NCBI RefSeq assembly: GCF_034259325.1
Contig: NZ_JAXIVS010000014.1
Coordinates: 124,001-188,000 of the forward strand
Direction of reading: 5' to 3'
Origin: Hyalangium ruber
GTDB lineage: Bacteria > Myxococcota > Myxococcia > Myxococcales > Myxococcaceae
Length of the DNA: 64,000 nucleotides
Shown here: positions 17,764 through 49,911 of the stretch, piece by piece
How the letters are laid out: the number at the start of each line of letters is the position of its first letter
Numbering within the stretch: the first letter of the stretch is position 1
Translations under genes and position numbers: made by a program
The notes under the pieces: model-generated
What the model was told of the DNA's origin: nothing
Database searches by the model: none
Seen by the model: the letters and a program-made list of their open reading frames with translations, nothing else

Positions 17764-17852
17764 CCCGCCGGGAGACAGATACAACGCTCCAGGTCGTGCG
17801 AGGGGCTTCCTACCCATGGGGTTCATGAGTACCCTGGGGTCGAGGAGGCTCT

Positions 17853-19199
17853 ATGTCCGCGCATTGGCGCAATGCGCCCTGCCCGTGTGGCAGTGGGAAG
17901 AAGGCGAAGCACTGCTGTGGCTCACGGGCCGACCCGTCGGTGGACGCGCCGGGGGCGTGGCTGCACGGCATGGACGAGCGGCTGGTGGGGGAGATGGTGG
18001 CCTTTGGCCACCAGCGCTTCGGGCGGGAATGGCTCACCGAGCCCACGGAGGCGTACTTCCCGCTGCGGCGGTTCGAGCGCGAGGACTTCCAGCTCTTCAT
18101 GCCGTGGGTGGTGAACCACTGGCGCGTGGAGGGGCGGCCCATGCGCGAGTGGTTCCTGGAGGAGCGGGGGGACCGGCTGAGGGAGGTCGAGCGCGGCTGG
18201 CTGCAGGCGCAGGCCGCCGCCGTGGTGACGCTCTGGGAGGTGCGCCAGGTGCGCGAGGGCGAGGGCGTGGGGGTGAAGGACCTGCTGGGGGGCGAGGAGC
18301 GCTTCGTCCACGAGGTGCGGGGCTCGCGCATGGTGCAACTCCGGGACGTCATGCTCGGGCGCGTGGTGGACTACGAGGGGCTGTCGGTGTTTTGCGGGAT
18401 GCACCCGAACACGCTGCCTCCGAGGGCGGCGCACGAGGTGGAGCGCACGGCCCGCCGGGCGCTACGGGTGCGGAGCGGCGGGGTGCCGCACCGCAAGCTC
18501 GCGGGCGACGGGGTGGCGCTGGGGCTCATCCACCTGTGGATGACGGAGGTGCTGGAGCTGGAGCTTCAGCCTCCGCCCACGTTGGTAAACACAGACGGTG
18601 AGCTGTTGTTGCTCACGGCTGATGATTTCACCTTCTCGGCGAAGGTCCGGACTCGGGTGTTGGAGGCGCTGCTGTCGCTGGAGGGCGCGGAGCTGAACCA
18701 GGAGGGCGTACCCGCGGACATTTCATTCCTGAAGTCGGGCAATGCGATGCACGCCTCGTGGGACAACACCCTGGTAGGCAGCGCCCGGGTGGCCGAGGCC
18801 TCGCTGCGGCTGGAGACGAACTCGGTGGAGCGTGCCGATGCCTTGAGGGCGCGGGTGGAGGCCGCGTGCGCGGGGCTGCTCACGCACCGCAAGCGGGAGC
18901 ACTGCGACCCCGAGGCGCTGATGGAGGCCCAGGGCGAGGAGGTCTCGGAATACGAGGCGCCAGAGCCGGAGATGCTGGCGGCGCTGCGCGAGTTCAAGGC
19001 GGAGCACTACGCGGCGTGGCTCGACAATCCGCTGCCGGCGTTGAAGGGGAAGACGCCGCGCGAGGCGGTGCGCACGGCGGCCGGGCGTCGGGAGGTGGAG
19101 TTGATCCTCAAGGAGTTCGAGCACGGCGAGGCGCTGCTGCCCGAGGAGGAGCGGGCCGACATCCTGGCCCTGCGAGGGGAGCTGGGGCTCACGGAGTAG
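17853..19199 (+). CDS. SEC-C motif protein of unknown function
   Basis: The protein has 448 residues. The N-terminus carries a SEC-C zinc-binding motif (APCPCGSGKKAKHCCG), the same Cys/His knuckle found at the end of SecA and in many unlinked proteins. The remainder is helical with no known domain. A later acidic and charged region (EAQGEEVSEYEAPEPEML) leads to a conserved-looking helix (LKGKTPREAVRTAAGRREVE). That last motif recurs in other SEC-C proteins next to the metal site. AGGAGG precedes ATG 17853. It is cytosolic. A role in protein interaction or quality control is inference. Confidence 0.85.
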   Translation: MSAHWRNAPCPCGSGKKAKHCCGSRADPSVDAPGAWLHGMDERLVGEMVAFGHQRFGREWLTEPTEAYFPLRRFEREDFQLFMPWVVNHWRVEGRPMREWFLEERGDRLREVERGWLQAQAAAVVTLWEVRQVREGEGVGVKDLLGGEERFVHEVRGSRMVQLRDVMLGRVVDYEGLSVFCGMHPNTLPPRAAHEVERTARRALRVRSGGVPHRKLAGDGVALGLIHLWMTEVLELELQPPPTLVNTDGELLLLTADDFTFSAKVRTRVLEALLSLEGAELNQEGVPADISFLKSGNAMHASWDNTLVGSARVAEASLRLETNSVERADALRARVEAACAGLLTHRKREHCDPEALMEAQGEEVSEYEAPEPEMLAALREFKAEHYAAWLDNPLPALKGKTPREAVRTAAGRREVELILKEFEHGEALLPEEERADILALRGELGLTE

Positions 19200-36272: not shown

Positions 36273-37673
36273 ATGTCCATCATCTGCGCCACCAACCTGT
36301 CACCGGAGTCCCAGCACGCCGCCACCGTCGCGGGGACCTTGGCGGCTCGGCTCAAACAGCCTCTGTGCCTCTATGGCGTGGCGGAGCACGCGGGCTCGGT
36401 TCAAGAGGCGCCCGTGGACGCCTCGGGCCTGAGCGCTCGGCTGGAGGGGGAGGCCGTGCGCCTCCGCGCCCTGGGCATCACCGTGCGCATCGTCATGCCC
36501 GAGGGAGGCAAGGACGAGGCGCTCATCTCCGACGAGGAGTGCCAGCGCGCCCGGTGGATGGTGGTGGCCGCGGAGGGCTGGCCCGCCCACGCGCTCTGGC
36601 GCCGCGCGCCGCTGCCCGAGCGACTGGCCCGCCGCGCCTGCGCTCCGCTGCTCGTGGTGCGGCGCTCCTTCGGCCTGGTGGACTGGGCCCGGGGACGGCG
36701 GCGCCTGCTGGTGCTGGCGGGGATGGATGTCTCGGGCGGCGAGGAGAACGGCCCGGGCGCCTTCCTCCAGGCGCTGCGCGAGGTGGGGCCGTGCGACATC
36801 ATCGCCACCTACGTGTGCTCGCCCGCCGAGGAGCGTGAGCGGCTGGGCATCCACTCGCCCGTGCATGTGGAGATGTTGGATCCGGTGGTGCGCCGCATCG
36901 AGGCGGTGGACCCCGAGGTGTCCCGGGTGCTCTTGAGAGACCTGCGCGAGCGCGTGGGCTCGCTGCCCGGCGAGGGCTCGGTGGAGCTGCACGTGGAGCC
37001 CGGCTATAGCAAGCGCTCGGACCACCTGCTGCACGTGGCGCACGAGCGCCGCGTGGACCTGATGGTGGTGGGCACCCACCAGCGCATGGGCCTGCAGCGG
37101 TTGTGGCACGGCTCCGTGTCCGCCGAGGTGCTGCGCCAGGCCGAGCAGCCCGTGGTGTGCGTGCCACCCACCTATGCCCAGCCGAAGCGGGCCTCGCCGC
37201 CCCGGAGCGTGCTGGTGCCGGTGGACTTCTCCGAGTCGAGCGTGCGCGCCATCGCCCAGGCCCGCACCCTGGTGGGCATGGGGGGCCGCGTCCACCTGCT
37301 GCACGTCCACTCGCGCCGGCTGAGCGACCCGGACTGGACGGACCACTATGGGGTGCTGCCCGAGCCGCCGGCCGAGCGAGACGAGGTGCTGCGCCGGCTC
37401 TGGGCGCTGGTGCCCGCCGAGGACGAGCGGGTGCGCTGGAGCGTGGAGGGGGTGAGCGGCACCGACGTGGCCCAGGCCGTCTGCCAGGCCGCCGACCGAG
37501 AAGGGGTGGACCTGGTGTGTGTGGGCGCCGAGGAGGGCCACCGCCGGGGCGGGGGCGGCAACCTGGGGCGGGTGCTGATGATGCGCTGCAAACGCCCCGT
37601 CCTGGTCGTTCCTTCTCAACAAGTGGGAAGAGAACCCCCGGAGTGGGGCGGAGCGGACCTTCACGGGAGGTGA
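36273..37673 (+). CDS. Multi-domain universal stress protein
   Basis: The protein has 466 residues. It starts as a Usp domain (SIICATNLSPESQHAATVAG). A middle unit ends with VDLMVVGTHQRMGLQRLWHG, then SVSAEVLRQAEQPVVCVPP, the ATP-site G-x2-G-x9-G pattern in variant form. A second full Usp domain follows (SVLVPVDFSESSVRAIAQA, then VDLVCVGAEEGHRRGGGGN and the closing PVLVVPS). Usp proteins bind nucleotides and help survival in stress or hypoxia. Three Usp-like units in one chain is unusual; the first is the most diverged. GGAGG lies just before ATG 36273. Confidence 0.9.
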   Translation: MSIICATNLSPESQHAATVAGTLAARLKQPLCLYGVAEHAGSVQEAPVDASGLSARLEGEAVRLRALGITVRIVMPEGGKDEALISDEECQRARWMVVAAEGWPAHALWRRAPLPERLARRACAPLLVVRRSFGLVDWARGRRRLLVLAGMDVSGGEENGPGAFLQALREVGPCDIIATYVCSPAEERERLGIHSPVHVEMLDPVVRRIEAVDPEVSRVLLRDLRERVGSLPGEGSVELHVEPGYSKRSDHLLHVAHERRVDLMVVGTHQRMGLQRLWHGSVSAEVLRQAEQPVVCVPPTYAQPKRASPPRSVLVPVDFSESSVRAIAQARTLVGMGGRVHLLHVHSRRLSDPDWTDHYGVLPEPPAERDEVLRRLWALVPAEDERVRWSVEGVSGTDVAQAVCQAADREGVDLVCVGAEEGHRRGGGGNLGRVLMMRCKRPVLVVPSQQVGREPPEWGGADLHGR

Positions 37674-38484: not shown

Positions 38485-38892
38485 TTATTTCTCCGCGCCG
38501 CCGAGCGGGTAGGCCATGAGGCTGAAGCCGCCGCTCACGAGGTTGAAGCCCAGGCGCTCGCCGCGCTTCACCACCGCCTCCAGCGTCGTGTAGCCCACCA
38601 GCATCTTGAAGCCGAGCCGCTTCGCCTCGTGGACGCAGCCCATCACCACCGCGTCCACGGCGAGGCTGCGCTCCACTTTCTCCAGGCCGGGCGCGGCGAT
38701 GATGCCCTCGAGCCACGCCACGGAGCTGTCGGTGCGGTAGACGAACGCGGCGGCCTTGCCGGGGACGACGCAGCCCGTCTGCGGCAGCAGGTCCAGGGTG
38801 AGCACCTCGTTGCGACCCTGGTACCAGGACTTGAGCTGCTCGAAGTGCTGCGCCGGGTCGAAGAGCACGGCCTGGAATCGCTGTTCGGACAT
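38485..38892 (-). CDS. GNAT-like small protein
   Basis: The protein has 135 residues from ATG 38892. The layout (FEQLKSWYQGRNEVLTLDLL, then VAWLEGIIAAPGLEKVERSL, VMGCVHEAKRLGFKMLVGYT, VKRGERLGFNLVSGGFSLM) is that of N-acetyltransferase-fold proteins, including phage-type ones, but the acetyl-CoA binding loop (Q/RxxGxG/A) is not evident. The function is thus uncertain. It is divergent from the acidic-repeat operon (start 39080) across a 187-bp region that holds a CGCTC/GAGCG inverted repeat at 38988-39001, so both may share control. Confidence 0.7.
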   Translation of the reverse strand: MSEQRFQAVLFDPAQHFEQLKSWYQGRNEVLTLDLLPQTGCVVPGKAAAFVYRTDSSVAWLEGIIAAPGLEKVERSLAVDAVVMGCVHEAKRLGFKMLVGYTTLEAVVKRGERLGFNLVSGGFSLMAYPLGGAEK

Positions 38893-39079
38893 GAGGGCTC
38901 CAATCGGGGGCTGCGGCAGTCGTAGCCCAGGTGCCCGGGATGTCCAAGAGCGTGCGCGCCCCTGGCCCCGGTGGGCAGCGCCTGACTCGCTCGAATGAGC
39001 GACTGGGCCCGCGCGCCGCCGTTCCCCAACTTGCAGCTCTCGTATGGCTGGGCTCACGCCAGCCGCAGGGGGGGAATCG

Positions 39080-40207
39080 ATGACCAGCGCCGAGCTCTTT
39101 TCGGGAGAGGACTTCGAAGCCGAGGCCGGGATGGATGAGTTCTCCGAGTTCTCCGATGCCTTCGAGGACTTGGACGGCTTCGAGGAGGAGGACGCGTTCG
39201 GCGAGCTCGACGGTTTCGAGGAGGACGGCTTCGAGGCGCTGTTCTCCGACGAGGGAGACGGCTTCGAGCAGGACCTGGCCACCGGGCTCTATGTGCCCTC
39301 GGCGCGGCCCCGCCTCGTTACCGGCCCCGCCGCCATGGTGCTCGCCCGGAGCCTCAACCCGTTCGTGTTGGACTCCATGGACTCGGATGACGCCGAGGCG
39401 TTCTTCCGGCGCATCGCCCGCGGGGTGCGGGGCGCCGTGCGCGGCGTCGCCCGGGGCGTGCGGCGGGTGGGCCGGGTCGCCATGCCCATCCTCCGTCGCG
39501 CCGCGCCCCTGCTGCGCCGCGCGCTGCCCATCATCCAACGGGTGGCGAGTGTCGCCGGGCCGTGGGGGCGAGTGGTGTCCGCGGGCATCGGCGCCGCGCA
39601 GGGGCTGCTCCAGGGCCGAGGGCTGCGCGGCGCGGTGGCGGGCGCCGTGGGCGGGCTGATTCCCGGGGTGGGCGGGCGCATCGCCAGCTCGCTGCTGCGC
39701 GGGGATGGCGCGGATGACGACGCCTCGCTGGATGCGCTGGCGGACATGGCGGACGCGCGGCAGGTGCCCGCCGCCGTGGCGCTGCCGATGGGCGCGGGGC
39801 TCGCGGCGCGTGTGGTGGCTCGGCAGGCGGTGCCTCCGGGCACGCCGATGGGCGCGGCCGCGCAGGGCGTCATCCGCGCGCGCACGCGGGGGCTGGAGCA
39901 GTACCTGATGCGGGTGGCGCAGCAGGTGCAGGGCTCTCCGGGTCGGCGCCTCCGGGTGCTGCGGACGCTGGCCCAGCTCGCGGCGCGCAACCTGCGCCGG
40001 CGGGGTCCGGGGGCGGCCATCAACGCCCTGCCCCAGGTGACGCAGGCGGCGGCGCGGCGGGTGCTGGCGCGGGCCCACCAGTCGCCTCGGGCGGGCACCG
40101 TGCCCCCGCAGGTGGCGGCGCAGCGGTTGATCGCACGGCAGCGGGTGTTGCGCCGCGTTCCCGTGGCCACGGTCAGCACCGCCAGCGCCCGCCAGGCGCT
40201 CACCTAG
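39080..40207 (+). CDS. Two-part protein: acidic Phe/Glu N-terminus, Arg-rich glycine-zipper C-terminus
   Basis: The protein has 375 residues from ATG 39080 (GGGGGGGA upstream). Residues 1-65 are almost all Asp, Glu, Phe, Gly (DGFEEDGFEALFSDEGDGFE). From ~110 an Arg-rich amphipathic region (RRIARGVRGAVRGVARGVRR) leads to a glycine-zipper hydrophobic stretch (~155-205; SAGIGAAQGLLQGR, AVAGAVGGLIPGVGGR). The remainder is basic and helical. There is no signal peptide. Charge segregation suggests that the acidic part masks a membrane-active or nucleic-acid-binding basic part. It is a paralogue of the next gene (shared order: acidic leader, FFRRIARG/FLRRLRGAFR helix, zipper, LAARxVVR block). First gene of a six-gene operon. 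No family recognised. Confidence 0.8.
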   Translation: MTSAELFSGEDFEAEAGMDEFSEFSDAFEDLDGFEEEDAFGELDGFEEDGFEALFSDEGDGFEQDLATGLYVPSARPRLVTGPAAMVLARSLNPFVLDSMDSDDAEAFFRRIARGVRGAVRGVARGVRRVGRVAMPILRRAAPLLRRALPIIQRVASVAGPWGRVVSAGIGAAQGLLQGRGLRGAVAGAVGGLIPGVGGRIASSLLRGDGADDDASLDALADMADARQVPAAVALPMGAGLAARVVARQAVPPGTPMGAAAQGVIRARTRGLEQYLMRVAQQVQGSPGRRLRVLRTLAQLAARNLRRRGPGAAINALPQVTQAAARRVLARAHQSPRAGTVPPQVAAQRLIARQRVLRRVPVATVSTASARQALT

Positions 40208-40264
40208 GCCGGAGCGGCCGCCCACGCATTCACACCATTTCCAGGACACGAAGGAGGAGTCGCG

Positions 40265-41377
40265 ATGCAGCAGCCTTTCGAGGATGAGTTTTCCGGGCAG
40301 GCCGATGAGATGTCCGACCTGATGGCCGAGGGGGAGGAAGGCATGGACGAAGGCTTCGAGGCCGAGGGCTTCGAAGGTGAAGGCTTCGAGGGTGAGGGCT
40401 TCGAGGGCGAAGGCTTCGAGGCCGAGGGCATGGATGGGGAGGGCTTCGAGGGTGAAGGCTTCGAGGGTGAGGGCTTCGAGGCCGAGGGCATGGATGAGGA
40501 GGGCTTCGAGGGTGAAGGCTTCGAGGGTGAGGGCTTCGAGGCCGAGGGCATGGATGGGGAGGGCTTCGAGGGTGAAGGCTTCGAGGGCGAGGAGGCGCAC
40601 GCGCTCGAGGACGCCTTCGCCTCGGCCATGGACGCGCAGGACGAGGACGAGTTCCTGCGGCGCCTGAGGGGCGCGTTCCGCACGGCGGCGCGCGTGGCCG
40701 GGCCGACGCTGCGGCGCATCGGACGCAGGGCCATGCCCATCGCCGTCCGGCTGATACGGCAGGCCGCTCCGCAGGTGGGCGGCATCGCGGGCCAGGAGAT
40801 CGGCCGCACCGTGGCCGGGCTGCTGCGCGCCGATGCCATGGACGCCTTCGCGGACGTCGCGGCGGACTACGCGGATGAGGACCTGGACGGGTTCACCTCC
40901 GTGCTCGGCGGGCTGGCGGCGCGCCACGTGGTGCGCTCCACCATCCCGCCGCAGCGTCGCCAGCAGCAGCCGCAGCAGGTGCGGGCGCTCGGCCGGGCCG
41001 TGGGGCGGATGACGACGCAGATCGCCCAGCGCATCGCCCAGCGCCACGGCACGCGGGCGCTGCCGGCGGTGACGCGCGTGGTGCGCCAGGTGACGCGCAT
41101 GGTGCGCCAGCAGGGCGCCAGCCCCCAGGCGGTGCCGAGGATGATCCGCCGCATCGGCAACCGGGTGGCCGCGAGCTCTCGGGCGGTGCGCCGGCTGGCC
41201 CGGCCGACCCAGGCCGCGCGGCAGCTCCGGGCGCGGGCGGGGATTCGCCGCACGGGCGGCGTGCGGCCTCCGATGGGCGGCGGCATGGGCATGGGGCCGG
41301 GCATGGGGCCGGGCATGGGGGGCCGCAGGTTGCGCACGGTCACCCTGCGCGGACCGGTACGAATCGTCGTGAGGTGA
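40265..41377 (+). CDS. Acidic GFEGEGFE-repeat protein with basic C-terminus
   Basis: The protein has 370 residues. AAGGAGGAG sits just before ATG 40265, a very strong ribosome site. Residues ~20-110 are pentapeptide-like repeats of GEGFE/AEGMD, about 20-residue units encoded by 60-bp DNA repeats. The following part is basic and helical (FLRRLRGAFRTAARV, RRIGRRAMPIAVRLIRQ) with a hydrophobic/Gly stretch and long Arg/Gln tracts. The tail is Gly/Met-rich (MGGGMGMGPGMGPGMGG). It is related to the preceding gene but has a longer acidic leader and shorter zipper. There is no signal peptide. It lies 57 bp after it. Function unknown. Confidence 0.8.
   Translation: MQQPFEDEFSGQADEMSDLMAEGEEGMDEGFEAEGFEGEGFEGEGFEGEGFEAEGMDGEGFEGEGFEGEGFEAEGMDEEGFEGEGFEGEGFEAEGMDGEGFEGEGFEGEEAHALEDAFASAMDAQDEDEFLRRLRGAFRTAARVAGPTLRRIGRRAMPIAVRLIRQAAPQVGGIAGQEIGRTVAGLLRADAMDAFADVAADYADEDLDGFTSVLGGLAARHVVRSTIPPQRRQQQPQQVRALGRAVGRMTTQIAQRIAQRHGTRALPAVTRVVRQVTRMVRQQGASPQAVPRMIRRIGNRVAASSRAVRRLARPTQAARQLRARAGIRRTGGVRPPMGGGMGMGPGMGPGMGGRRLRTVTLRGPVRIVVR
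40381..40590 (+). repeat. 60-bp tandem repeats coding the acidic leader
   Basis: Units at 40441-40500 and 40501-40560 differ at a single base. The unit at 40381-40440 differs at a few bases, and a partial copy follows from 40561. The period matches 20 codons, so copy number can change without a frameshift. Confidence 0.9.
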
Positions 41378-41405
41378 GAGTCCTTGGGAGGGGTGGGGGG
41401 AGCAC

Positions 41406-42710
41406 ATGGCCGACACGCTTCAGCAGTTCCTGCGGGCCAAGGTCCTGAACGTCTCGTTCCGGGCGGGGAGGCTCTCGCGCCTCACCCCTCGGGACGTGGG
41501 CATCCGTCCGCAGGATGTGCCCTACGCTCCCTCCGCCTCCCACTTCGCCGCGGCCAACGCGCGGCTGCAGGAGATTGATCAAGGCGTGCGCCGGGCGCTG
41601 GCGAACGTCTCCGGAGCGCTGAGCGACTCGCTCCAGGACTCGGGAGAGGTGCTGCGCCGCACCGCGCTGCTGGAGCGGGAGATCGACCGGGCCCGCCGCG
41701 CCTTCGGCCTCTTCTTCGACGTCTTCTGCCAGCGAGGCACCCGGTTCGCCCCCGCGCTGGCCGCCTGTGACGTCATCGCCGCGGACTGCTTCCGCATCGT
41801 CCGGAGGACCGCGCCCGGGCTGCTGGGCAGCCCGCTGCTCAAGCCGCTCACGTACCTGGAGCACGGTTTCTCGCCGGCCACCTTCCGGCGCGGCGTGTTG
41901 CTGCGCCGGCTGCTGGGCGAGCGCAACCCGTTCCCATTGATTCGCGTGCCCTACGAGCGCGTGGAGGCGCCCTGGGGCATGGGCGTCATCCTCCATGAGA
42001 TTGGACACAGCCTGCAGGCGGACCTGGGCGTCTGGCAGGAGACGGAGACGGCGCTGCAGCGCCGGGTGCTCGGCGTCACGGGAGACCCGTGGCTCACGCG
42101 CCTGTGGGGGCGCTGGCACAAGGAGATCTTCGCGGACCTCATCGCCTGCGTGCTGGGCGGGCCCGCCTCGGTCCACTCGATGAAGGACTTCCTGGCCTAC
42201 CCGCCCGCGCGCGTGCTGACGTTCCACCCGCTCAGCGTCCACCCCACGCCGTACGTGCGGGTGCTCATCCAGGCGGAGATGCTGCGGCGGATGGGCTTTC
42301 CGGATCAGGCGCGAAGGGTGCGCAACAACTGGAACCAGCTCTATCGCGGGTACCTGCCGGCTGCGCGGATTCCCGAGCGGCTGCTGCGCACGGCCTCCCA
42401 GGTCATCCCCCACGTGGTGGATGAGATTGCCTACCAGCCCCGCCGGAACATGGGGCAGAGCGCGCTGGTGGACGTGGTGCCCTTCCAGCCGACGGATCAG
42501 GAGCGAATCCTTCGGGCCGCGGAGGCGCTGGGGCGGGGGAGCCTGCCCGAGGGGCTGCCGCCGCGCTTCGTGGTGGGGGCCAGCCGAGAGGCACTCGAAC
42601 GGAGGCTTGCCTCGCCCGAGCGCATTTCGAGCACGGTGCTCAATCATCTGGCGAGGCTCGGCTCGCGGGGCGCGCGGGCGCCAGGCGTGAGCGCCACCAT
42701 GGCCGCATGA
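41406..42710 (+). CDS. HExxH zinc metalloprotease-like protein
   Basis: The protein has 434 residues. The active site is VILHEIGHSLQAD (HEIGH ~196-200). A second conserved-looking block about 38 residues later, WHKEIFADLIACVLGGP, has Glu in the position of a gluzincin third ligand and an Asp after it. The N-terminal ~170 residues are helical, and the C-terminal third is Arg/Pro-rich. There is no signal peptide. I recognise no named peptidase family. Placed third in the operon, it is well positioned to process the two acidic-leader proteins, though that is inference. The start ATG 41406 has GGGGGAG upstream. Confidence 0.82.
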   Translation: MADTLQQFLRAKVLNVSFRAGRLSRLTPRDVGIRPQDVPYAPSASHFAAANARLQEIDQGVRRALANVSGALSDSLQDSGEVLRRTALLEREIDRARRAFGLFFDVFCQRGTRFAPALAACDVIAADCFRIVRRTAPGLLGSPLLKPLTYLEHGFSPATFRRGVLLRRLLGERNPFPLIRVPYERVEAPWGMGVILHEIGHSLQADLGVWQETETALQRRVLGVTGDPWLTRLWGRWHKEIFADLIACVLGGPASVHSMKDFLAYPPARVLTFHPLSVHPTPYVRVLIQAEMLRRMGFPDQARRVRNNWNQLYRGYLPAARIPERLLRTASQVIPHVVDEIAYQPRRNMGQSALVDVVPFQPTDQERILRAAEALGRGSLPEGLPPRFVVGASREALERRLASPERISSTVLNHLARLGSRGARAPGVSATMAA

Positions 42711-42732
42711 CACGACTTCAGGGGGAGGGACG

Positions 42733-44763
42733 ATGTACGAGAATGTGAAGGGACGCAGTGCCACGGCCTCGCTGGAGCTGGCCGCGAGCGCGAAGACGAA
42801 GTTCGACGAGTTCCTGCGGCGGCAGCTGGGCATCAGCAACGCGCAGGATCCGGCCTCGGTGGTGGGCGCGCTGCGCAAGCTCTACCCGTCCACGGCCGCG
42901 CGGCTGGACGATGAGAGCCGGGGCGTGGCCATCCGCCAGGGGGGCGAGCCCGAGCGCCTGACGGTGGCGCCCACCGGCGGCATGGGCTCGCCGGGCGTGC
43001 TGCGCTACCAGCTGGTGCGCCAGGCGCTGGAGGCGGACCTGGGCCATGTGGTGGAGCACCCCTCCAACCGCGACTACAAGGCGCCGCTGACGGGCTGGAA
43101 GGACGCGGTGCTCGCCGAGCTGTCCGAGGGAGAGTCGGCGGCGTACCGGGCGGCGGACCCCGCTCAGCGGGACCGCACCTTCTATAGCGTGCGCAAGCTG
43201 GGGGACTACGCGCGGGTGGCGCGCATGGCGGGGTTGCTCAACCCGGTGCTGGACGCCGAGTTCCGCCGGCTGGCCTCCACCATGGACGAGGCCGCCATCG
43301 TGCTCCGGGTGCTCGCCGGGGAGACGATGTTCCGGGCGGGCTTCGACGAGGGCGGCACCGTCTTCCAGGTGGCCTTCGAGGACCTGCGGCAGCGCCGCGA
43401 GACGCTGATCGGCGCGCTGGAGCGCTTCACCTCCGCCACCCACGAGGGGGAGGAGGACTGGGGGGATGGCGAGGCCTCCTACGGGGCGCTGCTGCGCGTG
43501 CTGAGCGAGCAGGGCCACTCGGAGCTGCGCGCCATCATCCGGCCAGAGACGATGACGCGGCTCTTGGATGTGTTGCTGGACTCGGTGCCCCAGCAGCAGC
43601 CGGACTACCTGCGGGGCATCGCCTCGACGGTGCCGCTGGAGATGGTGCAGCTGCGGCGGCTGCGCGCGGTGGCCACCGAGCTGCTCAAGGGGCGGGGTGG
43701 TAGGAACCAGGCGGCCTCCGCGCCGCTCAGCGCCTTCGTCCAGGCGCTCACGCTGTTCATCGACGCGTTCGCCGAGCCGGGCACGGGCTCGCGGCTGCTC
43801 AACATCTCCCTGCCGGCGCCCTTCGCCTCGCTGCAGCTGGCGCGCGCCGACAAGGGTGGTGACATCGTCCGCGCCCTGTTCCATGTCCGCACGCGGCTGC
43901 AGGTGGAGCTGGATGCCATCCACGCCGACCCGAACGTCGATCCCCTCGACTGGCCGCTCATCGTGAAGCTGGACCGGGTGCTCTACGATTTGGACCGGGC
44001 CATCGACCTGTACCTGATGGGCGGGGGCAACAACCTGGATGGCTTCGAGGAGCGCCGCGCGCGCATGTACGCGGTGATGCTGCAGCGGTGGCTGGACCAG
44101 AAGCAGGCGACGGCGCCGGGCGATGACTGGAACCAGATCGAGCCGGAGAACAGCGCGAGGCAGCAGTTGCGCCTGGAGCTGCGCACGTTGGTGCAGACGG
44201 CGGTGGTCGAGCTGAGCAAGCCCCCGAAGCTGCCGCCGGCCGACGAGCAGGAGCAGTTCCTCCAGGAGCAGCGCCTGCTGGAGGCGGAGTGGCGGGCGCT
44301 GGCGGTGGAGCTCACCCAGGTGGCGACCGGCCGCCAGACGCTGGTGGACCTGGCGGGCACGCTCTACGTGGGGGTGAAGGGCTCGCTCGACGCGCAGGAG
44401 AAGATCGACCTGTCGCTCACGCCGTCGGAGCGCGTGTCCGCGCAGCTGCTGGTGAAGCGGCACGAGGAGTTGATCCGCAAGGTGGGCGAGACCAACCACG
44501 CGCTGAAGCCGCTGTATCAAATCAAGGAGCTGCCCCGCCTGGACCTGGAGATCGACCGGCTCACCCAGGAGCTCGAGCAGGAGCGCAAGGCCCGCCAGGA
44601 GCTGGAGCAGAAGCTGGCGGGGGCGAGCGGCGTGGCCAAGGAGTCGCTGCGCGTGCCGACGCCGCGCTCGCCTGGAGCGGGGAGGACGCGGCGCAACCGG
44701 AAGGCGGACTCGCGCAAGGCGCCCCGCGCCCACTCCCCGGAGGCTCCCGAGAAGACGCACTAG
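42733..44763 (+). CDS. Large protein of unknown function with C-terminal coiled coil
   Basis: The protein has 676 residues. There is no signal peptide or membrane helix. It is mostly helical (ASAKTKFDEFLRRQLGIS, LEAEWRALAVELTQVATG). A coiled coil lies near the C-terminus (EIDRLTQELEQERKARQELE) before a basic disordered tail (RTRRNRKADSRKAPRA). Several Trp/Tyr-containing conserved-looking blocks occur (YLMGGGNNLDGFEERRARMY). I recognise no family. GGGGGAGGG lies before ATG 42733. The 22-bp gap to the protease gene shows it belongs to the same operon. A scaffold role would fit its length and coiled coil, but is not shown. Confidence 0.82.
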   Translation: MYENVKGRSATASLELAASAKTKFDEFLRRQLGISNAQDPASVVGALRKLYPSTAARLDDESRGVAIRQGGEPERLTVAPTGGMGSPGVLRYQLVRQALEADLGHVVEHPSNRDYKAPLTGWKDAVLAELSEGESAAYRAADPAQRDRTFYSVRKLGDYARVARMAGLLNPVLDAEFRRLASTMDEAAIVLRVLAGETMFRAGFDEGGTVFQVAFEDLRQRRETLIGALERFTSATHEGEEDWGDGEASYGALLRVLSEQGHSELRAIIRPETMTRLLDVLLDSVPQQQPDYLRGIASTVPLEMVQLRRLRAVATELLKGRGGRNQAASAPLSAFVQALTLFIDAFAEPGTGSRLLNISLPAPFASLQLARADKGGDIVRALFHVRTRLQVELDAIHADPNVDPLDWPLIVKLDRVLYDLDRAIDLYLMGGGNNLDGFEERRARMYAVMLQRWLDQKQATAPGDDWNQIEPENSARQQLRLELRTLVQTAVVELSKPPKLPPADEQEQFLQEQRLLEAEWRALAVELTQVATGRQTLVDLAGTLYVGVKGSLDAQEKIDLSLTPSERVSAQLLVKRHEELIRKVGETNHALKPLYQIKELPRLDLEIDRLTQELEQERKARQELEQKLAGASGVAKESLRVPTPRSPGAGRTRRNRKADSRKAPRAHSPEAPEKTH

Positions 44764-44817
44764 TTCGCGCCGCTCTCGGAACCATTTCGTCAACGCACTT
44801 CACGTAGGTGGCACGCC

Positions 44818-45909
44818 ATGAGCCTTGGTACGGCAGAAGCCCTTCAGCGACTCTTGTCCCAGTGGAAGCGAGATGTCCTCGCCAACGTTCCTCCCGAGCA
44901 GCGCGCGGAGCTGCAGAAACAAATCGAAGCGCGAGCCGACGAGCTGATCACCCGCGCCTCGGACGGCTCGACCGGGTCGCTGTTCTCGGACCTGATGGGG
45001 TTGGGCAAGGGAGGAGCCCCCTCGTTCGATGACGTCAGCAAGCCGGTGCTCGTCCAGGACTTCGACGAGTCGGTCATCCAGACGCAGCTCCACGCCGCCG
45101 CGGAGCTCTATTACATCTACCAGCACGAGCGGATGAAGGTGTTCCAGGTGGCGGGAGCCCTGCTGCGGCTCTTCCACGATGGGCGCATGCGCATCCAGCG
45201 CGGCCCCGGCGCCCGCGCCCTGTACCTGCTGGAGAAGCACCACCCGCTGCGCTACAAGCCGCGGGACCGGCAGCTCGCCTACCGGCGCGCGTTCAACTAC
45301 GGCGCGCTGGCGGCGCCTCCGGGCGCGGTGGTGTTCCGCAACTTCCACCGCGAGTTCGTCGCCTTCGTGGCCGCCCTCGCCCAGTACTTCCGGGACTTGC
45401 TGATCGGCGAGGTGATTCGCGGCTCGCAGACGCTCAACGAGCGGCCCTTCGCCAGCCAGGCCACGATTCAACGGCTGGGCACGGACATGCGCTGGCAGTT
45501 GGACCGGGCCACCTACGGCAACATCCTGGCGCTCACGCTGGAGGTGGGTGAGTACCTCAAGACGATCCTCGACGCGCTGGAGTCTCCGGACATCAAGAAG
45601 GCGTTCGACGCCAACACCAAGTGGGACGTCATCGAGGTGGTGTCGCGGCGCTACCTGGGCGGGGCGGCCGAAATCTCGCAGCGCTCGAAGATGGCGGACG
45701 CGGGGCGGTTGCTGCTCAACTTCGTGGCGGACAACCCGTTCAAGACGCGCGACTTCCGAGACTTCCAGACGGAGGTGGCGCCGCTGGGCCCGGTGGCCGA
45801 GGAGTGGATCGCCGCGTACCGGATGACTCCCGAGGGCCGCGCCTTTCGCGGCGTCACGCCCACCCTGCGACGGACCCTCGGCATCCCGAGCGCCGCCGCC
45901 GCGCTGTGA
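44818..45909 (+). CDS. Helical protein of unknown function
   Basis: The protein has 363 residues. It is soluble and helical with no signal peptide. Blocks that look conserved include FDESVIQTQLHAAAELYYIY, VFRNFHREFVAFVAALAQYF and KWDVIEVVSRRYLGG. It ends in a hydrophobic Ala-rich tail (IPSAAAAL). I recognise no family. It is the fifth operon gene, 54 bp after the coiled-coil gene and 15 bp before the DUF4438 gene. Confidence 0.8.
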   Translation: MSLGTAEALQRLLSQWKRDVLANVPPEQRAELQKQIEARADELITRASDGSTGSLFSDLMGLGKGGAPSFDDVSKPVLVQDFDESVIQTQLHAAAELYYIYQHERMKVFQVAGALLRLFHDGRMRIQRGPGARALYLLEKHHPLRYKPRDRQLAYRRAFNYGALAAPPGAVVFRNFHREFVAFVAALAQYFRDLLIGEVIRGSQTLNERPFASQATIQRLGTDMRWQLDRATYGNILALTLEVGEYLKTILDALESPDIKKAFDANTKWDVIEVVSRRYLGGAAEISQRSKMADAGRLLLNFVADNPFKTRDFRDFQTEVAPLGPVAEEWIAAYRMTPEGRAFRGVTPTLRRTLGIPSAAAAL

Positions 45910-45924
45910 GTCGCGGAGCACGGC

Positions 45925-46887
45925 ATGGATGTCCAGCAAGCTCCAGTCAGAGAGGCGGGCACGTACGCACCGGGGACGCCTCGAACCAATGAGGCGCGGA
46001 TGGTGGCGGTGGCGGTGGGAGGGCAGGTGGCCCACCCCATCATCCGCGCCTCGCCGTATCGGATCGGCCGGGATGGGGTGCTCCGGCTGCTCCCGGGCAG
46101 TGGAGGAATCGTCCTCAACCGGCGCGTGGGGGACGCCGCCGTGGGCGTGGCGGGCGACCACGTCGAGGCGGGTGTCTCTCTCCACAACAACGGTCGCGAG
46201 GTGGTGGGTCCGCGTGACGGTCCCAACCGGGCGCTCATGTTCTACGCCTGCGTGGGCAACCGGGTGCGGGTCGTCTCCGGTCCCGCCTCGGGTGCGGTGG
46301 GCACGGTGGTGGGCAAGCACGGCGGTATCAACCACGTCATCGTCGACTTCGAGCCCCAGGTGACCCGGCGCCTGCTGATCGGCGACCGGATGCAGATCAA
46401 CGCGTACGGCCAGGGGTTCACGCTGCCGGACTTTCCCGAGGTGAGCCTGCTGAACCTCTCCCCGAGGCTGCTGCGGCGCTGGGGCGTGCGCGCCTCGCGG
46501 GGGCGGCTGCGCATCCCCATCACCCATACCGTCCCCTCGCAGTTGATGGGCTCGGGCATGGGGCGCTCGGAGGGCGTGCTGGGGGACCTGGACATCCAGC
46601 TCTCGGACAAGGGGCTGGTGCGGCGCTTCCGGCTCGGCTCATTGCGGCTGGGGGACCTGGTGGCGCTGTGCCCGCTGGATTACCGCTTCGGCCCCTCGAG
46701 GCGGCAGGGCACCGTTACGGTGGGCGTGGTGGTGCATACCGACAGCCAGATCGCCGGCCATGGGCCCGGGGTGACGCCGCTGTTGATCGCTCCTCGGGAC
46801 CGGCTGCGGCTCGTCCGTGCGCCCTCGGCCAACCTCGCGCTCGTGCTGGGGCTGCGCAGGAATCTGACTCCGGCCGCTCGCCCCTGA
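45925..46887 (+). CDS. DUF4438 domain protein
   Basis: The protein has 320 residues. The family is seen in ASPYRIGRDGVLRLLPGSGG, VLNRRVGDAAVGVAGDHVE, FYACVGNRVRVVSGPASGAV, GKHGGINHVIVDF and HTVPSQLMGSGMG. DUF4438 proteins are found in bacteria and archaea; a structure is known but no reaction. It is unusual to find it as part of an operon with acidic repeat proteins and a metalloprotease. It is soluble and without signal peptide. Only 15 bp separate it from the gene before, and it ends the operon; the next gene converges at 46900. Confidence 0.9.
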   Translation: MDVQQAPVREAGTYAPGTPRTNEARMVAVAVGGQVAHPIIRASPYRIGRDGVLRLLPGSGGIVLNRRVGDAAVGVAGDHVEAGVSLHNNGREVVGPRDGPNRALMFYACVGNRVRVVSGPASGAVGTVVGKHGGINHVIVDFEPQVTRRLLIGDRMQINAYGQGFTLPDFPEVSLLNLSPRLLRRWGVRASRGRLRIPITHTVPSQLMGSGMGRSEGVLGDLDIQLSDKGLVRRFRLGSLRLGDLVALCPLDYRFGPSRRQGTVTVGVVVHTDSQIAGHGPGVTPLLIAPRDRLRLVRAPSANLALVLGLRRNLTPAARP

Positions 46888-46899
46888 TGCCGTGCCGCC

Positions 46900-47271
46900 T
46901 CAGGGGGCGCGCGGCACGGAGGAGGCTCCGAAGCAGCGCGACACCATGGCTGCGCGGGTCTCCACGCCGAGCTTGGAGAAGATCCGCCGCAGGTGGGCCG
47001 CCACGGTCCATGTGCTGATCTTCAGCTCCGCGGCGATCTGCTTGTTCACCTGGCCGGCGGCCACGCACGCGACGATTTGCAGCTCGCGCGCGGTGAGCAC
47101 CCGCGCGTCCGGCAAGGGGACCGCCGTGGGCGTGGGCTCCTCGAAAGGCGCCGGCACGAGGTGGTAGCGCTGGCCGTCGATGATGAGCTCTCCCACGGGG
47201 GCGGAGCCCGGGGCGCGAGCCTCGGGGGCGACGAGCAGGACACGGCTGCCTGGGGGAAGCGGGCGCTCCAT
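46900..47271 (-). CDS. Short LuxR-type regulator
   Basis: The protein has 123 residues. The C-terminal half is a complete GerE/LuxR helix-turn-helix (LTARELQIVACVAAGQVNKQ, IAAELKISTWTVAAHLRRIF). The N-terminal ~55 residues carry no receiver or sensor domain, only a short strand-rich stretch ending in a Pro linker. It can bind DNA but should receive its signal by protein contact or be constitutive. It converges on the acidic-repeat operon with a 12-bp gap, and lies just downstream of the gene starting at 48453. The latter and this gene are separated by 24 bp, so they form one unit. Its target could be either neighbouring operon. Confidence 0.88.
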   Translation of the reverse strand: MERPLPPGSRVLLVAPEARAPGSAPVGELIIDGQRYHLVPAPFEEPTPTAVPLPDARVLTARELQIVACVAAGQVNKQIAAELKISTWTVAAHLRRIFSKLGVETRAAMVSRCFGASSVPRAP

Positions 47272-49246: not shown

Positions 49247-49368
49247 GTGTGCTCTCTCCTTGGAAATTGGTCCCTTGCCGCCAAAGGTAGTCACGGCTCC
49301 GCGTGCGGGAAGCGGGGGGGTAGGCTGCCCGGCTGGTGACAGACTCCGGAGTGACAGAAAGTGACACG

Positions 49369-49911
49369 ATGAGAGACGCACGGTTGGAGCTGGTCCAGGG
49401 AGACATCACAAAAGTGGAGGCGGACGCGTTGGTGAACGCGGCCAACTCGTCGTTGCTGGGGGGCGGAGGGGTGGACGGGGCGATCCACCGAGCGGCGGGG
49501 CGGGAGTTGTTGGAGGAGTGCCGCGATCTGAGAGGTTGTCCCACGGGGGAGGCGCGAATCACCCAGGGCTACAAGCTGCGCGCGCGCCATGTCATCCACA
49601 CGGTGGGCCCGCGCTGGCAGGGAGGAGGGCGAGGCGAAGCGGGGCAGCTGGCGCGCTGCTACCAGAGCGTCTTCGCATTGGTGGAGAAGCACGGCCTGCG
49701 CACGGTGGCCTTTCCGTCCATCTCCACGGGGATGTACGGCTATCCGATCGAGAAGGCCTCGCGCATCGCGCTGCGCGAAATCCAAGCGGCGTTGGAGCGG
49801 CTGCCCCAGGTGGAGAAGGTGACGGTGGTGCTCTTCACGCCGGGGGACCTGGAGGTGTACCGGAGGGCGCTGGCCGGCGAGCCCGAGCCGGCGGGTGGTC
49901 CGGGGCGATGA
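49369..49911 (+). CDS. Macro-domain protein (O-acetyl-ADP-ribose deacetylase type)
   Basis: The protein has 180 residues. The macro domain covers nearly all of it: LELVQGDITKVEADALVNAA, NSSLLGGGGVDGAIHRAAG, CPTGEARITQGYKLRARHVI and VAFPSISTGMYGYPIEKAS. These are the ADP-ribose-binding loops of the MacroD/YmdB subgroup, which remove acetyl or ADP-ribose groups. ATG 49369 is chosen; an upstream start would add residues without match. Its stop overlaps the next gene as ATGA (49908-49911), so the two are coupled. The G-run motif GCGGGGGGGTAGG (49312-49324) lies 45-57 bp upstream. Confidence 0.95.
   Translation: MRDARLELVQGDITKVEADALVNAANSSLLGGGGVDGAIHRAAGRELLEECRDLRGCPTGEARITQGYKLRARHVIHTVGPRWQGGGRGEAGQLARCYQSVFALVEKHGLRTVAFPSISTGMYGYPIEKASRIALREIQAALERLPQVEKVTVVLFTPGDLEVYRRALAGEPEPAGGPGR

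Follow-up and report, generated by a model that had tools for sequence, protein, structure and literature searches.

An ordered, co-inherited gene cassette of acidic-leader proteins, a zincin-like peptidase and a DUF4438 protein in Hyalangium ruber and other bacteria: a possible conflict system

The 64,000-nucleotide stretch of Hyalangium ruber DNA analysed here (contig NZ_JAXIVS010000014.1, positions 124,001 to 188,000; hereafter the window) carries six genes, A to F, on the forward strand at 39080-46887. A and B encode proteins with an acidic leader and an Arg-rich tail, C an HExxH protein, D and E proteins modelled as all-helical, and F a DUF4438 protein. The six genes represent the myxobacterial version of a widespread, co-inherited cassette, the core of which comprises one to three A/B proteins, C, D, E, F, usually a further protein, G, which the window lacks, and a small LuxR regulator. 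Five core families (A/B, C, D, E and G) score below every Pfam cut-off, yet they are linked, ordered and co-inherited, and recognised toxin domains stand alongside them in some genomes. The findings support a cassette that is co-inherited and of conflict type. It is tentatively proposed, at somewhat less than an even chance, that the cassette is an undescribed conflict (toxin-deploying) system, patchily spread over phyla, in which the acidic-leader protein is activated by C.

Distribution and gene content of the cassette

Among 84,980 species genomes scanned for the HExxH protein C, at least 75 loci were identified; the search used exact peptide patterns and its list is a lower bound, and since the list was seeded on C, linkage to this gene is overstated. 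The carriers belong to at least six phyla and include Myxococcota, Cyanobacteria, alpha-, beta- and gammaproteobacteria, Planctomycetota, Acidobacteria and Desulfuromonadia. Identity of C to the window copy is about 80% in Myxococcaceae and mostly 48-55% in Cyanobacteria, the three proteobacterial classes, one Kuenenia (Planctomycetota) and one Desulfuromonas, with three divergent copies, including one from Thermoanaerobaculia (Acidobacteriota), at 37-40%. When the window genes were mapped onto the loci with tblastn, B, C, D, E and F were co-located at almost all of them, and each of the 57 loci holding A/B, C, D, E and F shows one order and one strand. Pairwise divergences of the core genes are correlated (r 0.74-0.92; C-E 0.92, AB-C 0.91), with none of 200 permutations as high. 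The leader motif GFExxGFE occurs ten times in the 10.8-Mb window genome, always within A or B, and the reversed-pattern control not at all; this and the order kept in 57 of 57 loci indicate recurrence beyond chance. Gene G, a further family between E and F, is present in 58 loci, outside the myxobacteria, and E is carried by 17 of 195 Myxococcota genomes. The tree of C groups largely by class, yet contains more changes than the classes require, which makes horizontal transfer of the cassette plausible, though not proven. A sequence-only reading of the window had treated the six genes as a single unit; order and correlated divergence bear this out as one co-inherited cassette, and the neighbourhood, the absence of which would have spoken against that reading, is kept across phyla. 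Coordinates and intergenic gaps (57, 28, 22, 54 and 15 bp) were exactly reproduced. The features of the window are as follows.

39080-40207, forward strand: gene A, acidic leader at residues 1-107, then an Arg-rich tail, junction Phe at residue 108; paralogue of B
40265-41377, forward strand: gene B, FEGEG-type acidic leader at residues 1-129, Arg-rich tail ending in GPVRIVVR, junction Phe at residue 130
40640-40717, forward strand: junction AQDEDE/F of B (slash at the junction) plus a predicted 22-residue amphipathic cationic helix, from alignment and hydrophobic moment
41406-42710, forward strand: gene C, putative gluzincin-like zinc metallopeptidase, HEIGH at 41994-42008, HKEIFAD further downstream
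42733-44763, forward strand: gene D, large protein, all-helical in the model, coiled coil at the C-terminus
44818-45909, forward strand: gene E, all-helical in the model, about 60% identity between phyla
45925-46887, forward strand: gene F, DUF4438 protein with both Pfam halves, TM1086 homologue
46900-47271, reverse strand: converging small LuxR (GerE) regulator, GerE 2.7e-17, conserved with the cassette
38485-38928, reverse strand: upstream GNAT-like gene, not conserved beside the cassette

An alternative in-frame ATG for gene A lies at 39044; the start at 39080, preceded by the purine-rich GGGGGGAAT, is the most likely. Of the two flanking genes pointed out earlier, the converging LuxR gene belongs to the cassette and stays with it in 63 of 75 loci, whereas the GNAT-like gene shows no conservation beside the cassette in myxobacterial loci, is probably unrelated, and was dropped as a component. 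No second A/B or DUF4438 copy was found in the window's genome, and no gene G in a search that lacked a positive control. A macro-domain-like open reading frame (ORF) at 49336-49911 and a tandem universal-stress-protein-like ORF at 36273-37673, both recognised by eye, lie near the cassette and look ordinary.

Several other loci differ in content. In one Corallococcus (L005, 15567-17615) a zinc-alcohol-dehydrogenase-like and a LysR-like gene are inserted between F and the LuxR gene; the pair was judged unrelated by eye and rejected as a cassette part. A Paraburkholderia megaplasmid (L095, 6855-15753) carries a sister cassette with an EGEWE-type acidic-leader protein having a basic, CxxC-ending tail, together with a C homologue, a 652-residue protein, an E homologue, an M20 peptidase, an amidohydrolase and a LuxR gene. 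In the Thermoanaerobaculia locus (L071) a divergent C-E pair is surrounded by several acidic-leader ORFs, one of them OmpA-like (17834-18304, reverse strand), and there is an aminotransferase-like gene. Distant E-domain proteins (23-27% identity) are encoded on plasmids of Tolypothrix (L096, 11092-12939) and Burkholderia pyrrocinia (L097, 11212-13017), where they belong to other operons and have S8 subtilase genes as neighbours; in the B. pyrrocinia operon one protein of 1254 residues combines an amidase with two papain-like domains. These operons are possibly a related but different system, and were set aside as a clue to the cassette, being distant and unexplained.

The core proteins

The A/B proteins change charge sharply at a conserved junction. 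Among 32 aligned members the part before an invariant Phe (residue 130 of B) contains 29-56% Asp/Glu and mostly 0-3% Lys/Arg (11% in one member), with a pI of 4.1; the part after it contains 3-6% Asp/Glu and 13-26% Lys/Arg, with a pI of about 12. This Phe is the sole invariant column of the family. The junction mostly reads DE/F, with F, L, I or W as the next residue, and is EA/FF in gene A. The 22 residues starting at the junction Phe carry a net charge of +3 to +9 and have a mean helical hydrophobic moment of z 2.8 relative to same-residue shuffles, 94% of the members exceeding z 1.64. The amphipathic helix thus predicted is FFRRIARGVRGAVRGVARGVRR in gene A; that of B scores z 1.73, below the family mean. 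A and B are 26-33% identical, in agreement with their description as paralogues. The sequence-only reading had further proposed that the leader masks the cationic part until the protease cleaves it. The masking gains weight from the charge switch, which falls at a conserved junction, and from the amphipathic cationic helix predicted after it in nearly all members examined; the cleavage is put forward here conditionally. The leader was also considered as a genome-wide sorting tag, which was rejected because its motif is confined to A/B in the window's genome. A Paraburkholderia megaplasmid gave one extra DNA match to the motif and no leader protein from it.

The HEIGH motif corresponds to residues 197-201 of C, as expected of the HExxH metalloprotease predicted earlier. 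Residues H197, E198, H201, E240 and D244 are invariant in 35 sequences, down to 33% identity, as is a WHKEIFAD block. C combines HExxH with a downstream Glu ligand in a conserved ExxxD, the hallmark of gluzincins, and judging from these residues it is probably a gluzincin-like zinc metallopeptidase; no Pfam family scored above cut-off. C may cut A/B. Thermolysin-type gluzincins favour Phe or Leu C-terminal of the cut, a preference that would fit the invariant junction Phe. A relationship of C to eCIS_core was rejected as unsupported at the profile level: none of the 35 members matched PF13699 (eCIS_core), and the hhalign probability against the DUF4157 profile, which holds 4 sequences only, was 0.3%.

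AlphaFold models both D and E as all-helical, with mean pLDDT of 78.9 and 80.5 (34-35 sequences). Neither has a significant match in the PDB (best Foldseek E 0.04 for D and 1.2 for E), and the best VIA-align scores, Z 8.0 for D (116 aligned, root-mean-square deviation 3.4) and Z 5.6 for E (50 aligned, 2.1), fall within the range of generic helical matches. A well-known family, which would have told against a novel system, did not emerge from these models, and a new fold is not claimed for either protein. Gene F matches PF14505 (175 bits, 6e-52) and PF20999 (142 bits, 9e-42), both above cut-off, in line with its earlier naming as DUF4438; it is a full-length member of the family, homologous to Thermotoga TM1086 (PDB 3n99, 3dcl; phmmer 1.8e-63). 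A literature search found no paper naming DUF4438. D, E and F might assemble, modify or export something, as was suggested from their composition. The view that no described system has such a gene set was upheld: Pfam, NCBIfam and PHROGs recognised only F and the LuxR protein in the window cassette, PADLOC was silent, and literature searches for a similar gene set returned nothing matching. Across the cassette loci the known families are DUF4438, LuxR and accessory genes only, and A/B, C, D, E and G have no Pfam match above the curated cut-off. PADLOC gave no match for A, C, D, E, F or G and a chance-like 13.9 bits for B, so a known defence system was rejected. Phage or prophage origin was rejected: PHROGs gave no match of note on the window cassette, and no homologue of E turned up in 50,697 phage records or in IMG/VR viral contigs.

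Variable slots and toxin genes in relatives

Slots between the core genes of the relatives were annotated from mechanical ORFs, without gene calling. The D-E gap exceeds 300 bp in 51 of 61 loci, often with a small variable gene, the E-G gap in 11 of 58 and the F-S1 gap in 18 of 19. The slot proteins form several mutually unrelated groups. Above the Pfam cut-off, Ntox5 was found in a G-F slot (L018, 4.8e-18) and Ntox16 just behind a LuxR gene (L069, 3.4e-13); both are listed as exported polymorphic toxins of the Photorhabdus virulence cassette (PVC) route (PMC3482391). Aspzincin_M35 (L024, 5e-5) and GIY_YIG_2 (L040, 1.4e-3) scored below cut-off. GIY-YIG-like motifs in other F-S1 proteins (L019, L029, L054) and PD-(D/E)xK-like motifs in E-G proteins (L020, L024, L027, L035, L052) were seen by eye only and are not matched by Pfam. 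Trypsin-like, methyltransferase, M20 peptidase, amidohydrolase and aminotransferase genes occur near some copies. No immunity gene was recognised in the slots, small unknown genes being possible candidates, and the scanned slot proteins contain no Pfam trafficking domain (RHS, WXG, TPS, PVC-metallopeptidase and the like). Several E-G and G-F slot proteins open with a short acidic motif resembling the A/B N-terminus. Under fixed start rules this resemblance exceeds that of 364 flanking ORFs (Mann-Whitney p 0.003), and 6 of 19 slot N-termini beat their own shuffles at 0.05, against 0.95 expected (binomial 2e-4). The variable toxin slot of the relatives shifts the likely role of the cassette from peptide maturation towards toxin-type conflict.

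Interpretation and comparison with known systems

In the proposed conflict system, A and B would be made as inert precursors in which the acidic leader neutralises the amphipathic, Arg-rich tail. C would cut them at the conserved junction (DE/F followed by F or L), and the freed cationic helix would act on membranes, or on nucleic acid. Many relatives also have enzyme or toxin cargo genes in variable slots of the cassette, and the cargo proteins that share the A/B N-terminal motif, which are some of them, may dock to an A/B/D/E assembly. In the myxobacterial form, with no recognised toxin and no G, A and B may themselves be the effectors, or the cargo may lie elsewhere. Several observations weigh against this proposal. 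No toxin or immunity gene was recognised in the window copy, the cassette proteins show neither a signal peptide nor an evident export route, and the slots are empty in many loci (an E-G gap above 300 bp in only 11 of 58). The N-terminal motif signal rests on few proteins and is mostly absent in the F-S1 slot proteins, and the hydrophobic-moment test imposes the alpha-helix angle, so that the helix is a prediction and not a structure. A bolder version, which is rather doubtful, would make the cassette a toxin-deployment machine of a new and widespread class, derived from neither phage tails nor known secretion, whose protease strips the acidic leader to yield a cationic, membrane-active translocator carrying interchangeable toxins docked by the shared N-terminal motif.

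The absence of signal peptides and of recognised immunity genes, the Arg-rich tails, the nuclease-like slot proteins and the patchy distribution would also suit an intracellular anti-phage or stress conflict system. There, A/B would be polyampholyte scaffolds, acidic-aromatic in one part and Arg-rich in the other, for condensing or binding nucleic acid. Effectors of nuclease or protease type would dock to these scaffolds through the shared motif and be unleashed by C on infection, and nothing would be exported. This is considered unlikely, as the core has no PADLOC match, PMC3482391 counts Ntox5 and Ntox16 among exported polymorphic toxins, and the amphipathic helix looks membrane-active. These toxin domains, and the post-junction helix, for which such a role gives no explanation, make it improbable that the cassette builds a structural or metabolic assembly matured by C, such as a protein shell, granule or storage body, with toxin-like slot genes being incidental or assembly enzymes. 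The distribution, patchy even among Corallococcus relatives, also speaks against it. The all-helical D and E with their coiled coil, the strong conservation of E and the enzyme genes that lie close to some copies (methyltransferase, M20 peptidase, amidohydrolase, aminotransferase) would be consistent with such an assembly.

Contractile injection systems encoded elsewhere were also considered, the cassette serving as their loading or maturation module in which C would process, and D, E and F package, motif-bearing toxins. The tube family PF06841 is enriched in carriers, in Pseudomonadota (14 of 28 against 23 of 397 sampled, Fisher 2e-9) and in Myxococcota (17 of 17 against 77 of 178 others), in samples unmatched for phylogeny and genome size; non-carriers in the genus of the Corallococcus carriers have tubes as well. 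The window's genome holds a contractile-injection-type locus on another contig (L132, contig C4, 102000-121000) with a PF06841 tube and a PF04984 sheath (6e-18), and Ntox5 and Ntox16 are known from the PVC route. A baseplate-like ORF was seen by eye in the same locus. However, of the 38 cassette genomes searched, 20 have the tube family and 18 do not, so the cassette seems not to need one; Pfam and PHROGs found no sheath, tube or baseplate gene within it, and C is not detectably related to eCIS_core. A loading module is accordingly given a low probability.

If the proposed conflict system is real, the cassette would be a toxin-deploying or immune cassette with directly testable parts, trigger and target. 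The pairing of acidic leader and protease would be a natural case of charge-masked, protease-activated cationic proteins, and the orphan DUF4438 structures would gain a context. Cationic antimicrobial peptides are made as pro-peptides with an acidic pro-region, a junction and then a cationic amphipathic helix. A/B show the same succession, a likeness of physico-chemistry alone, but have no signal peptide, and their helix opens a longer Arg-rich tail. Polymorphic toxin systems (Zhang et al. 2012, PMC3482391) are resembled in that Ntox5, Ntox16 and nuclease- or peptidase-like domains vary beside constant genes and a peptidase, and in the constant N-terminal motif on some cargo. Unlike them, the cassette has no RHS, WXG/LXG, TPS or other known trafficking domain and no recognised immunity gene, its constant A/B, D, E and G fall in no listed family, and no toxin was recognised in the window copy. 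Extracellular contractile injection systems (eCIS) and PVC with eCIS_core DUF4157 (PMC3482391, PMC8213781) likewise place an HExxHxxQ metallopeptidase beside toxins, often without immunity genes; toxin families overlap, and the two systems co-occur at the genome level. C has the HExxHxxQ of the PVC-route signature (HExxHxxQ-E; PMC3482391) without detectable homology to eCIS_core, and the cassette differs in lacking sheath, tube and baseplate, with half of the carriers tube-less. The metallopeptidase-substrate pairs of FxSxx-COOH type (PMC7159879) also set a zincin-like metallopeptidase beside a putative substrate in a conflict cassette, whereas the candidate substrate here is 300-400 residues long and joins an acidic leader to a basic tail, and no vWA, MoxR or NTPase components were found. 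For the DUF4438 family (TM1086), whose structures are solved, the cassette context of gene F is new.

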